From Flavivirga jejuensis (GTDB taxonomy: Bacteria; Bacteroidota; Bacteroidia; Flavobacteriales; Flavobacteriaceae), in contig NZ_JAUOEL010000001.1 of the NCBI RefSeq assembly GCF_030540765.1, positions 372,001 to 436,000 on the forward strand: a DNA stretch of 64,000 nt. Reading direction: 5' to 3'. The notes under the pieces were generated by a model that saw only the letters and a program-made list of their open reading frames with translations, did not search any database and was not told the DNA's origin. Position numbers and translations under genes: made by a program. Shown piece after piece: positions 3,463-24,375 of the stretch; positions within the stretch are counted from its first letter, which is position 1, and the number at the start of each line of letters is the position of its first letter.

Positions 3463-3723
3463 ATGCGAATATCAGTAGAATTAACCATGACGCCGTTGCA
3501 GGACGATTTCGAACCTGCCATTATTCATTTTATAAAAAAACTAAGAGCATCAAACCTTAAGGTTCTTGAAAATCCATTAAGCACGCAGGTTTATGGAGAT
3601 TATGATGAGGTAATGAAACTACTTACCGTAGAGATTAAAGAAGCTTTCGAGCTTATTGAAAAAGGCTTACTATATATGAAGATTGTAAAATCGGATAGAC
3701 ACGATTATGAACCTCATTTTTGA
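3463..3723 (+). CDS. Thiamine-binding protein (YkoF / MTH1187 family)
   Basis: This is a short (86 residue) single-domain protein of the Thiamine_BP/DUF77 family. It has the typical opening ISVELTMTPL, a central ENPLSTQVYGDYDEVMKLL segment and a conserved helix after it. Family members fold as a ferredoxin-like domain and bind thiamine or related molecules in the cytoplasm. The next gene, a PnuC-type transporter, overlaps its 3' end by 17 bp, so co-translation is likely. The association supports a thiamine-uptake role for the pair. Confidence 0.85.
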   Translation: MRISVELTMTPLQDDFEPAIIHFIKKLRASNLKVLENPLSTQVYGDYDEVMKLLTVEIKEAFELIEKGLLYMKIVKSDRHDYEPHF

Positions 3724-20624: not shown

Positions 20625-20827
20625 AAAAATGGATTAATGTCGTAAAAATAATAAAGTATAAGCAAAGAATCTTCAAAAGATTTAAGTCTTTTGATTTCAA
20701 ATAAAAATGTCTTTCAAATAGATATGAGAATCTTATTAAATATAATTTGAAATACAGTTAGATGTTAACCTTATTTCAAACAGATGTAAATACAACGTTT
20801 AAACTTTCAACATTGTTATAATAAGCT

Positions 20828-20835
20828 TAAATTTG
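20828..20835 (+). promoter_or_regulatory. Predicted leuS promoter (-7 box)
   Basis: TAAATTTG followed by CGCC matches the Bacteroidetes -7 element, 57 bp upstream of the leuS ATG. A clean -33 TTG is not evident at the expected distance. Confidence 0.5.
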
Positions 20836-20891
20836 CGCCTTTATTAAGCAAGCAATATTTAGTTGGCAGTAATACGAAAATAAGAATTTAG

Positions 20892-23800
20892 ATGAAATAC
20901 GATTTTAACGAGGTAGAAGCCAAATGGCAAAAATATTGGGCAGAGAACCAAACGTTTAAAGCTGTTAATAATAGCGAAAAACCAAAATATTATGTGTTAG
21001 ATATGTTCCCTTACCCAAGTGGAGCAGGTTTACATGTTGGGCATCCATTAGGATATATAGCTTCAGATATTTACGCACGTTACAAACGTCATAAAGGCTT
21101 TAATGTATTGCATCCACAAGGCTATGATAGTTTTGGTTTACCAGCAGAACAATATGCCATTCAAACAGGGCAACATCCAGCAATAACTACTGCTGAAAAT
21201 ATAAAAACATATCGTAGACAGTTAGATCAAATAGGTTTTTCGTTCGATTGGTCTCGTGAGGTTAGAACGTCAGACGCTAGTTATTACAAATGGACGCAAT
21301 GGATTTTTATTCAGTTGTTCGAGTCTTGGTATAATAATGATTCTAATAAAGCTGAAGATATTTCTGGTTTAGTAACTATTTTCGAAACAGAAGGGAATAC
21401 AAATGTAAATGCCGTTAGCGATGATAATGTTGAGGTGTTTTCTGCTGAAGATTGGAAAGTGTTTTCTTCTAAAAAACAACAAGAAATTTTGCTACAATAC
21501 AGGTTAACGTATTTAGCAGAAACAGAAGTGAACTGGTGTCCTGTTTTAGGAACTGTTTTAGCAAATGATGAAATTGTAAATGGTGTTTCAGAACGTGGCG
21601 GACACCCCGTAATTCGTAAAAAAATGACCCAATGGAGCATGCGTATTTCTGCCTATGCAGAACGTTTGCTTCAAGGATTAAATACTATTGATTGGACAGA
21701 TTCTTTAAAAGAAAGTCAGCGTAATTGGATTGGAAAATCGGTTGGGGCGTCAGTTTTGTTCCCCATCCTATCCTTCCCTAGAGGGGAAGAGAAAGCTGGT
21801 TCGTATACTCGTGCGGGTTATATGACGGGAGGAAATAATTCACACTTATTATTGGAACGAGCCAAAGAGATGCGTGCTAATCCAACTCAGGCAGAAGCCG
21901 TATTGTGGGAACAGCTTAGAAATAAAAATTTAGAAGCAAAATTCAGACAACAACACTTAATAGGGGACTATATTGTTGATTTTGTATGTTTAAAAAAGCG
22001 ATTAATCATTGAAGTTGACGGGAAAATCCATGAATCTCAAATAGAAGAAGATGCAAAACGCACAGAAATTCTTGAAAATGATTACTATAAAGTTATCCGT
22101 TTTACAAATGAGGAAGTTTTAGGAGATATTGAAAGTGTTTTAGAAAATATAAAAAAAGAACTAGCACAAAGAGAATCAATTCAGAGTAAATCACAACAGA
22201 GTGAGCAAGAGCAGAGTGAGCAAGTTCCCCCTTCGGGGGCTAGGGGGATTGAAGTATTCACGACTCGTCCTGATACCATCTTCGGTGTGTCATTTATGAC
22301 TCTAGCACCAGAACATGAGCTAGTGTCACAAATAACAACACCAGAACAGAAGGAAGCTGTTGATGCTTATATTCTTGCGACAGCAAAGCGCAGTGAACGT
22401 GATAGAATGGCAGATGTAAAAACCATTTCAGGTGTATTCACAGGTGCCTATGCCGAACACCCGTTTACAAAAGAACCGATTCCAATTTGGATTGGCGATT
22501 ATGTATTGGCAGGCTATGGAACAGGAGCGGTAATGTCGGTGCCATGTGGAGATCAGCGCGATTACGATTTCGCGAAGCATTTTAATATTTCAATTCCTAA
22601 TATTTTTGAAGGCGTAGATATTTCTGAAGAAGCTTTTTCGGATAAAGAAAAAACCATCATAGCAAATAGTGATTTCCTTAATGGGATGAACTATAAAAAA
22701 GCCACTAAACGTGCCATTTACGAATTGGAACAATTGGGACAAGGCGAAGGTAAAACCAATTATAGATTACGGGATGCTGTATTTAGCAGACAGCGATATT
22801 GGGGCGAACCATTTCCTGTATATTACGTGAATGGGATGCCACAAATGATTGCTAAGGAGCACTTGCCAATCAAATTACCAGAAGTTGAAAAATATTTACC
22901 CACCGAAACAGGTGAACCACCATTAGGAAATGCAACCGTTTGGGCTTGGGATACAAATACGAATCAAGTAGTAAGTAACGACCTAATCACCCAGAGCACA
23001 GTCGGAGGAAACCAAGATAAGGGTATCTATCCGCTCGAACTAAACACCATGCCAGGTTGGGCAGGAAGTTCATTCTATTTTAACAGATATATGGATCCTG
23101 ATAATGATAATGAGATGGCTTCCAAAGAAGCACTGGATTATTGGCAGGATGTCGATTTGTATATAGGAGGTAGTGAACATGCCACAGGACACTTATTGTA
23201 TTCTCGTTTTTGGCAAAAATTCTTGTTTGATAAAGGCGTTGTGCCAGTAGATGAATATGCTAAAAAACTTATTAACCAAGGGATGATTTTGGGTACTAGC
23301 GCTATAGTATATCGTATTTCAGGAACTAATAAATATGTTTCCAAAGGGTTAAAAGATAGTTATGATGTTGAAGAAATACGAGTTGATGTTAATATGGTTA
23401 ACGCTTCAGATGAAATTGATATTGAAGCATTAAAAAAATGGCAACCGCAATTCAATAATGCTGAATTTATTTTAGAAGGAAGTAGTTATATTGTTGGGAG
23501 AGAAGTTGAAAAAATGTCAAAACGGTGGTATAATGTTGTTAATCCTGATGCTATTTGTGCACAGTATGGCGCAGACAGTTTAAGACTCTACGAAATGTTC
23601 TTAGGTCCATTAGAGCAATACAAACCATGGAATACAGCAGGAATTACAGGAGTACACAATTTCTTAAAAAAATTATGGAAACTATACCATCAAGGAGAAA
23701 ACGGAACTTTTCACGTAACGAGTTCCCCTCCTAAGGAGAGGTTAGGGGAGGCTCTTAAAACACTCCATAAAACCATAAAGAAAGTAGAAGAAGATATTGA

Positions 23801-24206
23801 GAATTTCTCATTCAATACATCGGTGTCTACTTTTATGATAGCCGTTAATGAATTAACAGCTCAAAAATGTAAAAGTAAAGAGATCCTTGAACCTCTATTG
23901 ATTCTGATATCTCCCTATGCACCACATATCGCAGAGGAGTTATATAGTCAGTTAGGGCATAATGAGTCCATTTCAACAGCAGATTTCCCAAAATTTGATG
24001 CAAGTCATTTAGTAGAAAGCAGTAAAAATTATCCGATTTCATTTAATGGAAAAATGCGTTTTACTTTAGAGTTGCCATTAGATTTGAGTAAAGATGCTAT
24101 TGAAGCTGCAGTTATGGCACATGAAAAAACAAAAGAACAACTTGGAGGTAGAACACCGAAAAAAGTGATCGTGGTTCCAGGGAAAATAGTCAATATTGTA
24201 GGTTGA
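20892..24206 (+). CDS. leuS: Leucyl-tRNA synthetase with an in-frame DUF559 endonuclease insert
   Basis: This enzyme charges tRNA-Leu. It has HVGH (in GAGLHVGHPLGYIASD), the KMSKR motif near the end of the catalytic core, the editing-domain TTRPDT loop and a C-terminal anticodon-binding domain. At 1104 residues it is about 165 longer than usual. The extra length is a complete DUF559-type nuclease (residues about 290-452) placed in a beta-turn between GKSVGAS and IEVFTTRPDT, where normal enzymes have only a few residues. A second short insert (residues 945-953, SPPKERLGE) occurs near the C-terminus. The frame is open throughout, so the enzyme is presumably active; both inserts are translated. 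It is transcribed from its own promoter, divergent from ftsX. Confidence 0.95.
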   Translation: MKYDFNEVEAKWQKYWAENQTFKAVNNSEKPKYYVLDMFPYPSGAGLHVGHPLGYIASDIYARYKRHKGFNVLHPQGYDSFGLPAEQYAIQTGQHPAITTAENIKTYRRQLDQIGFSFDWSREVRTSDASYYKWTQWIFIQLFESWYNNDSNKAEDISGLVTIFETEGNTNVNAVSDDNVEVFSAEDWKVFSSKKQQEILLQYRLTYLAETEVNWCPVLGTVLANDEIVNGVSERGGHPVIRKKMTQWSMRISAYAERLLQGLNTIDWTDSLKESQRNWIGKSVGASVLFPILSFPRGEEKAGSYTRAGYMTGGNNSHLLLERAKEMRANPTQAEAVLWEQLRNKNLEAKFRQQHLIGDYIVDFVCLKKRLIIEVDGKIHESQIEEDAKRTEILENDYYKVIRFTNEEVLGDIESVLENIKKELAQRESIQSKSQQSEQEQSEQVPPSGARGIEVFTTRPDTIFGVSFMTLAPEHELVSQITTPEQKEAVDAYILATAKRSERDRMADVKTISGVFTGAYAEHPFTKEPIPIWIGDYVLAGYGTGAVMSVPCGDQRDYDFAKHFNISIPNIFEGVDISEEAFSDKEKTIIANSDFLNGMNYKKATKRAIYELEQLGQGEGKTNYRLRDAVFSRQRYWGEPFPVYYVNGMPQMIAKEHLPIKLPEVEKYLPTETGEPPLGNATVWAWDTNTNQVVSNDLITQSTVGGNQDKGIYPLELNTMPGWAGSSFYFNRYMDPDNDNEMASKEALDYWQDVDLYIGGSEHATGHLLYSRFWQKFLFDKGVVPVDEYAKKLINQGMILGTSAIVYRISGTNKYVSKGLKDSYDVEEIRVDVNMVNASDEIDIEALKKWQPQFNNAEFILEGSSYIVGREVEKMSKRWYNVVNPDAICAQYGADSLRLYEMFLGPLEQYKPWNTAGITGVHNFLKKLWKLYHQGENGTFHVTSSPPKERLGEALKTLHKTIKKVEEDIENFSFNTSVSTFMIAVNELTAQKCKSKEILEPLLILISPYAPHIAEELYSQLGHNESISTADFPKFDASHLVESSKNYPISFNGKMRFTLELPLDLSKDAIEAAVMAHEKTKEQLGGRTPKKVIVVPGKIVNIVG
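21761..22248 (+). mobile_element. DUF559 nuclease element inserted in frame in leuS
   Basis: About 163 codons are bounded by GC-rich palindromes unlike the surrounding AT-rich gene: CTTCCC-TAGA-GGGGAAG (21773-21789) at the left and CCCCC-TTC-GGGGG (22227-22239), then CTAGGGGG, at the right. The translated core has the full PD-(D/E)xK-like pattern of DUF559: HLIGDYIVDFVCL with D363, LIIEVDGKIHE with E374 and D376, and the closing VIRFTNEEVLGD. The segment GYMTGGNNSHLLLERAKEMR precedes it. A Glu/Gln/Ser-rich tail leads back into LeuRS. There are no intein splice residues. I read this as a selfish endonuclease element tolerated as an inserted protein domain. Confidence 0.85.
23724..23751 (+). 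repeat. Short palindromic repeat inserted in frame in leuS
   Basis: The sequence TCCCCTCCTAAGGAG followed by AGGTTAGGGGAGG is GC-rich and partly self-complementary. It encodes SPPKERLGE between the GTFHVTS and ALKTLHKTIKKVEE stretches of LeuRS. It resembles the GC-rich ends of the DUF559 insert and the 62,343-62,428 repeat. Confidence 0.7.
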
Positions 24207-24375
24207 AAAATGTGTATTCTTAAAGAAAGAGGCGCTTTTAGTCATGTCGAAATGAGACACGATTGAGACATCACATAATGTATTGAGAATAATTATATAA
24301 TTTTTCCTAAAAGTTATTATTGAGCTTGTAGAAGAGAATGCAGGAATTCAATATTTTTTAAATAGTATTATTAAA

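Follow-up and report, generated by a model that had tools for sequence, protein, structure and literature searches.

A DUF559 nuclease domain carried in frame within leucyl-tRNA synthetase of Flavivirga jejuensis: a candidate homing-type element with hairpin ends in Bacteroidota

The window analysed here, a stretch of 64,000 nucleotides from the Flavivirga jejuensis genome (6.02 Mb in 33 contigs), carries leuS, the gene for leucyl-tRNA synthetase (LeuRS), and within it a block of DNA encoding a nuclease domain of the DUF559 family (Table 1). The product of the reading frame matches the NCBIfam model leuS_bact with 868.5 bits, and the Pfam match to DUF559 inside it (E = 3.9e-35) scores 124.7 bits against a curated cut-off of 20.6. 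LeuRS is an essential enzyme, needed for making all other proteins, and a search of the genome gave a single LeuRS match, so the insert-bearing enzyme presumably works. The nuclease coding region has no start or stop codon of its own, and as far as the sequence tells the insert is translated with its host and not spliced out, as a preliminary description of the locus had proposed. That description had also set the insert between the catalytic core and the editing domain, and the order of the Pfam domains bears this out; where the insert lies in the folded enzyme is judged from these Pfam borders, the AlphaFold model of the whole LeuRS being too poor for the purpose (mean pLDDT 58; alignment of 31 rows, the window and 30 of 42 loci tried). 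In the window 169 residues lie between the motifs NWIGKS.G and VFTTRPDT, and the empty loop usually has 15, which puts the insert at about 154 codons (~462 bp) with blurred edges. The insert first described is in frame, in an open reading frame, but its size of exactly 489 bp was not upheld.

Table 1. Features of leuS and of the inserted block (window coordinates)
Feature	Position	Strand	Basis or remark
leuS ORF, leucyl-tRNA synthetase, 1104 aa, contains the insert	20892..24206	+	ORF call, Pfam, NCBIfam
Entire insert, in order: 5' hairpin end, linker, DUF559, linker, 3' hairpin end	21759..22247	+	In frame; variation of the empty loop leaves the edges approximate
5' end: C-rich stretch and hairpin CTTCCC-TAGAG-GGGAAG (21773-21789)	21759..21789	+	Translated FPILSFPRGE
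DUF559 (PF04480) nuclease domain, residues 322-424; D363, E374, D376	21855..22163	+	Pfam
C-terminal linker, fast-evolving; 15-bp SEQ-rich stretch missing in F. aquimarina	22164..22223	+	
3' end: hairpin CCCCC-TTC-GGGGG (22227-22239) and outer G-run (22243-22247)	22224..22247	+	Translated VPPSGARG
LeuRS editing domain, residues 451-610, directly after the insert	22242..22721	+	Pfam

Comparison with orthologues, the check proposed at the outset, argues that the block is not native to the enzyme. It was present in 61 and absent in 44 of 105 LeuRS genes, a set enriched for filled genes by the many loci fetched through searches for the insert and missing those with unmatched junction motifs (e.g., L181). 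The empty genes include that of a congener (G019, locus L103), and a native LeuRS domain is thereby ruled out. The outcome named beforehand as refuting a mobile insert, the same block in every orthologue of the family with neither free-standing relatives nor palindromic ends, did not occur. A second congener (G248) had three matches to the block, in IleRS, in RecG and free-standing, and none in LeuRS. Across the family, 146 of 397 genomes matched the block at E ≤ 1e-10, the match lying in LeuRS in at least 27 of them (loci L052-L076, L078 and L095). On a host tree built from LeuRS with the insert removed, the distribution of the 61 filled and 44 empty genes takes 24 changes to explain, starred branches forcing at least 19 of these, and the window gene, L018 and L019 each have empty LeuRS genes as their closest neighbours. 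Presence was also more clustered on this tree than in any of 500 shuffles (shuffle mean 33.7 changes), which speaks for inheritance besides gain and loss. On these gene comparisons, the LeuRS block is an insertion with patchy presence.

The empty loop was 15-54 residues long in 27 genes and 13-45 in the other 17, and exactly 15 in 24 of the 44. In 11 of the 44 it exceeded 20 residues with no nuclease, and several of these longer loops hold other translated repeats. Such repeats were seen in L114, L116, L119, L121, L187, L191 and L194, and are of IASEAKQS-like and NEMLNQVQHD...SALDAES-like types. That unrelated repeats settle at one place suggests that the loop is permissive and not a specific target, and this counts against homing.

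The preliminary description had considered a single insert in LeuRS, which is indeed there, but this view was too narrow, the family being found in 11 kinds of host protein. Translated DUF559 occupies 15 sites in these 11 families in Bacteroidota, mostly as one lineage, and 13 of the 15 sites are interior to the host protein. Hosts were identified by reading, motifs and Pfam, and several of the 15 sites rest on one or two loci. Two sites each were found in LeuRS, the methionine synthase MetH, the restriction subunit HsdR and UvrD-type helicases, and one each in IleRS and RecG; HisD carries the domain at its C-terminal end and HemD at its N-terminal end. The other hosts are a methylmalonyl-CoA mutase fusion protein, an M23 peptidase and HsdM, the last found on a short contig that bears the label of a Spirochaetes MAG and is of uncertain source. 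Phylum-wide, 126 of 395 genomes matched at E ≤ 1e-15, free-standing copies counted in. The second LeuRS loop corresponds to window positions 22941-23030 (residues 684-713), and a DUF559 insert was seen at the corresponding place, before TMPGWAGSS, in three other Bacteroidota (L222, L225 and L226).

A tree of 132 DUF559 cores placed 83 in-gene and 3 free-standing copies in one lineage of 86 rows, with support of 93/90, just under the tool's star. It lies apart from groups of 36 and 7 free-standing rows, and three HemD fusions fall outside it. The RecG, IleRS and HisD copies each form their own clade and the MetH copies group together. In a wider tree with phylum-wide rows, in which LeuRS was thinned to 23 rows and L051, L078 and L095 were dropped, the lineage (SH-aLRT 92) comprised 60 of the 62 in-gene rows together with 4 free-standing rows, and the two HsdR copies lay outside. 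Removal of identical repeated rows left 92 rows, 86 of them in-gene. The MetH gene of locus L086 carries two copies at different sites; they are 82% identical, their homology ends at AGCCCCCC...GGGGGGGCT, and their ends read by eye as AGCCCC/GGGGCT. They are sisters in the DUF559 tree (support 100/90), which points to copying between the sites or to conversion between them.

The catalytic pattern reported for the insert is present, and its three positions are conserved across the in-gene copies as D in 86/86, E in 85/86 and D in 86/86. Core dN/dS was 0.02-0.16 in 10 of 15 chosen pairs (two of the others were missing from the run and three gave no core dS), as compared with 0.02-0.12 for LeuRS itself; in the C-terminal linker it reached 1.75, over few codons. 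By these ratios the nuclease core is under purifying selection. Two of the 61 filled LeuRS genes nevertheless hold decayed copies: L095 has D in place of the catalytic E, and L182, by eye, is decayed and still in frame. The AlphaFold model of the core (pLDDT 86; the 84 aligned rows were the window copy and 83 sequences out of 135 candidates) matched PDB 3hrl (E = 1.1e-6), which was also the sole significant match by sequence (E = 2.2e-16). It further matched 3r3p, the catalytic domain of the homing endonuclease I-Bth0305I (E = 4.5e-5; TM 0.69 on the query and 0.79 on the target), and, with a weak score, Vsr (1cw0, E = 0.03). Caulobacter cells that lack a cytosine methyltransferase are reported to need VsrA, a DUF559 protein, for their response to DNA damage (PMC12907096), which makes nuclease activity of the family plausible in vivo.

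An intact catalytic site under purifying selection would also be expected of a domesticated domain, a nuclease that serves its host, for example in defence or repair tied to LeuRS, and the clustering of the insert on the host tree fits a domain that is in part inherited. We think this improbable. Close relatives do without the insert (the congener G019 and the empty neighbours of L018 and L019), the same domain sits in frame in functionally unrelated proteins, and the two decayed copies persist in frame. A known defence system was also sought with PADLOC, which gave no match.

The in-frame position in a conserved essential gene is reminiscent of inteins, and removal of the block from the protein or from the RNA has to be weighed for this reason. 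We give it almost no credence. Inteins have conserved splice residues; the junctions here are variable hairpin-coded peptides that lack them, as had been noted from the start, and neither Pfam nor NCBIfam scans found an intein or splicing-domain family. For a group I or group II intron, no Rfam ribozyme was found in 20800-24300 up to E = 1, two matches lying far below their gathering scores. The frame moreover stays open through the fast-evolving linkers.

Particular pairs of genes point to movement of the insert apart from its host. Between the window and Flavivirga aquimarina, 2 of 28 fourfold-degenerate sites differ in the insert and 149 of 313 elsewhere in LeuRS (p = 1.3e-5, or 0.02 after correction for 1585 pairs). 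Between L018 and L019 the counts are 4/29 in the insert and 124/296 in the host (p = 2.6e-3); here the two genes share some 340 bp with a single mismatch, a tract essentially limited to the insert that stops no more than about 20 bp from the 3' junction, and the DNA on both sides of it differs throughout. The exchanged tracts cover the nuclease core. Some copies were thus exchanged between species independently of the gene that carries them. Across the full set of 1585 pairs, median divergence was 0.625 for the insert and 0.640 for the host, and the insert was less diverged at p < 1e-3 in three pairs and more diverged in none, about 1.6 being expected by chance if pairs were independent. Exchange is thus seen in particular pairs, as against a general rate. 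The LeuRS flanks show no clear co-conversion, so the tracts fit gene conversion from one filled copy to another and not the invasion of an empty allele.

The ends of the insert had been described as GC-rich palindromes. Both ends do carry hairpins, a perfect one at the 3' end and a shorter one at the 5' end, but in this copy no inverted-repeat relation between the two ends is detectable, their score of 6.0 lying below the 99% point of shuffles (10.5). The pattern CCCC N2-8 GGGG occurs three times in the window, twice overlapping at the 3' end of the insert, where 0.19 would be expected from dinucleotide shuffling. Among 105 in-gene copies, the score of the ends was above the shuffle 99% point in 43 and not in 62, so that terminal inverted repeats of the kind found in DNA transposons are seen in part of the copies. 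Where the ends are clearest, both consist of a hairpin with a C-run (or G-run) beside it, as in L068 (5' TCCCCCTAGCCCCCAAAGGGGGAAC, 3' GTTCCCCCTTCGGGGGTTAGGGGGA). In Flavivirga sp. 57AJ16 (L007, about 3480-3540) the LeuRS insert has a tandem duplication of its 3' hairpin.

Hairpins were counted on both sides of the nuclease, within 170 bp and from a score of 10 upwards, against control windows. At score 10 they flanked 45/86 in-gene copies (controls 16/342) and 27/44 free-standing ones (controls 21/172). The corresponding counts were 35/86 (controls 1.2%) and 24/44 (controls 8.1%) at score 12, and 5/86 (controls 0%) and 13/44 (controls 5.8%) at score 14. Measured against swapped flanks, the inverted-repeat scores of free-standing loci passed the 99% swap level in 4/45, with the whole distribution shifted (p = 5e-9), a test weakened by hairpin families shared among the loci. 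Free-standing relatives with the same ends had been suggested as a thing to search for. The F. jejuensis genome does hold two further DUF559 genes, both free-standing, but the hairpins at free-standing copies mostly differ in sequence from those of the window. At G000:C12:815529-816853 in this genome (L002, L247 and L248), a free-standing DUF559 lies in or beside an array of tandem units of about 266 bp each, with the hairpin CCTCCCTTATTTTTAAGGGAGG at five sites.

Hairpins also occur without the nuclease. The motif CCCCNAACCCCN{2,6}GGGG gave about 250 matches (overlaps counted) in 397 genomes, against 11 for the reversed control, with no match in the F. jejuensis genome. DUF559 was found in 39 of the 49 genomes with the motif and in 107 of the 348 without it (p = 7e-11, kinship uncorrected and hairpins bounding the inserts included); 10 of the 49 have no DUF559 match. 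Solo hairpins lie in frame in MetH, where L080 has one at site 2 and L087, L093 and L094 have one N-terminally, and inverted pairs about 110-140 bp apart lie between genes in L200 and L202 with no DUF559 between them. By eye, the outer runs of the latter are near apparent stop or start codons. A single hairpin in L207 is translated within a membrane-protein-like reading frame (SISPLTPKGGIL).

From such observations it could be argued that the nuclease is passive cargo, a DUF559 gene caught between two hairpins of the REP or RPE kind that are moved by other machinery (a transposase, slippage or recombination). The hairpins that occur alone or as empty pairs, the motif-bearing genomes with no DUF559 match and the other short repeats taken up by the same LeuRS loop would all suit this account. 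Mere cargo should, however, lose both its purifying selection and its catalytic residues, and here selection on the core is strong and the D/E/D set is kept in 85/86 copies. The strong association of hairpins and DUF559 between genomes and the position of the exchanged tracts on the nuclease core likewise speak against it, and we regard the cargo account as unlikely, if less so than domestication.

Our preferred reading is that the insert is probably, though far from surely, a homing-type mobile element that has neither intron nor intein and is kept as a permanent domain of its host protein. It draws on the patchy presence, the exchange in particular pairs, the selection on the core, the mostly site-specific clades within one main in-gene lineage, the two MetH copies of L086, the hairpins and their association with DUF559 between genomes, the I-Bth0305I fold and the VsrA report. 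It is weakened by the equal median divergence of insert and host, the lack of clear co-conversion of the flanks, the clustered presence, the permissive loop, the motif-bearing genomes that have no DUF559 match, the low number of in-gene copies with hairpins on both sides at the strictest threshold (5/86) and the ends of the window copy and of 62 others that fail the inverted-repeat comparison. On this homing reading, a Vsr-like DUF559 coding region sits between GC-rich hairpin ends that can be read in frame, so that the block would form a permanent extra domain between the catalytic part of LeuRS and its editing domain, and insert and LeuRS would be translated as one unspliced protein. The LeuRS-borne nuclease would cut or nick either leuS that lacks the insert or hairpin DNA, and the insert would then be installed when the break is repaired with a filled copy as template, which is homing. 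Rare moves to other genes would start at the hairpin ends, and imprecise loss would be barred because leuS is essential. The nuclease would thus drive the spread of the element, which could in that sense be called 'selfish'.

Most known mobile nuclease elements of essential genes come with splicing of the RNA or the protein, or lie next to the gene. Inteins are found in frame in conserved proteins, form site-specific clades, are patchily distributed and carry a nuclease, and the DUF559 insert has these features in common with them; it differs in that no splicing domain was found and that it seems to stay in the protein. The WHO elements of yeast are described in the cited account as a homing nuclease at a conserved gene with allele-specific cutting, gene conversion and transpositions elsewhere (PMC7282813). 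Both would be homing-type nuclease elements at a conserved gene that do without protein splicing, but WHO replaces the 3' end of FBA1 and encodes an intein-related protein with a zinc finger according to the same account (PMC7282813), whereas the DUF559 insert is internal, retained, hairpin-ended, Vsr-like, bacterial and found in many host genes, its cutting being predicted. In the rps3 fusions of fungal mitochondria, as outlined in the source, a homing endonuclease sequence likewise shares the reading frame of the host gene (PMC10448965). There it is a LAGLIDADG sequence within a group I intron (PMC10448965), and the DUF559 insert in contrast is internal, lies in bacterial chromosomes and in many genes, and has hairpin ends and no intron.

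Other parallels concern the palindromes and the fold. Rickettsia palindromic elements and intragenic REPs place short palindromes in coding genes, as do the hairpins of the insert (PMC3733652). Those elements carry no nuclease domain, whereas the insert has one of about 100 residues between two palindromes (PMC3733652). Set beside the usual description of palindromic elements, an in-frame palindrome fits the insert and a short element free of cargo does not. REPs, for their part, are described there with a terminal GTAG or CGTC tag (PMC3733652). REPtrons resemble the DUF559 element in having the gene of a DNA-cutting enzyme flanked by palindromic repeats, with solo repeats elsewhere, but their RAYT is an HUH tyrosine transposase in the account given, as against a Vsr-like nuclease with copies in frame in host proteins (PMC3733652). 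PARCELs are palindromic coding elements thought to spread horizontally, as the insert may do, and as characterised in the source they differ from it in consisting of tandem amphipathic repeats with no nuclease (PMC2996958). I-Bth0305I and the EDxHD homing endonucleases appear, on the predicted model, to share the catalytic-domain fold of the DUF559 core. I-Bth0305I is a phage-type enzyme with a long DNA-binding region (PMC3943268), and in the insert the catalytic domain alone is recognised, inside a host enzyme. The insert itself had three phage matches, all below 38% identity.

We found no description, in the open-licence literature, of nuclease domains kept in host proteins between translated hairpins, and no paper there on DUF559 in a tRNA synthetase. 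The element may be seen as a homing-type nuclease element crossed with an in-frame palindromic element, and there is a real chance that it forms a class of its own. A bolder version, which we put forward tentatively and hold to be possible rather than probable, is a new class of mobile element: a hairpin-bounded, wholly translatable nuclease that settles in loops of essential proteins across the phylum and homes by cutting DNA while still part of the functioning host protein, with solo hairpins as its non-autonomous forms and hosts such as LeuRS as its means of expression. The hosts named for this class are tRNA synthetases, methionine synthase, RecG, HisD, the mutase, restriction enzymes and others.

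Here, at many sites, essential enzymes tolerate what looks like an intact nuclease as a lasting part of themselves, and in some pairs it was exchanged between species. Should homing be shown, a selfish nuclease would have one more means of hiding within essential genes. The sites also provide a list of protein loops that tolerate a domain of 150 residues, and the element suggests what DUF559, a widespread 'domain of unknown function', and its accompanying GC-rich hairpins may do. Reading by eye, without statistics, also showed GC-rich hairpins near the DUF559 genes of single records from E. coli, Azospirillum and Synechocystis.
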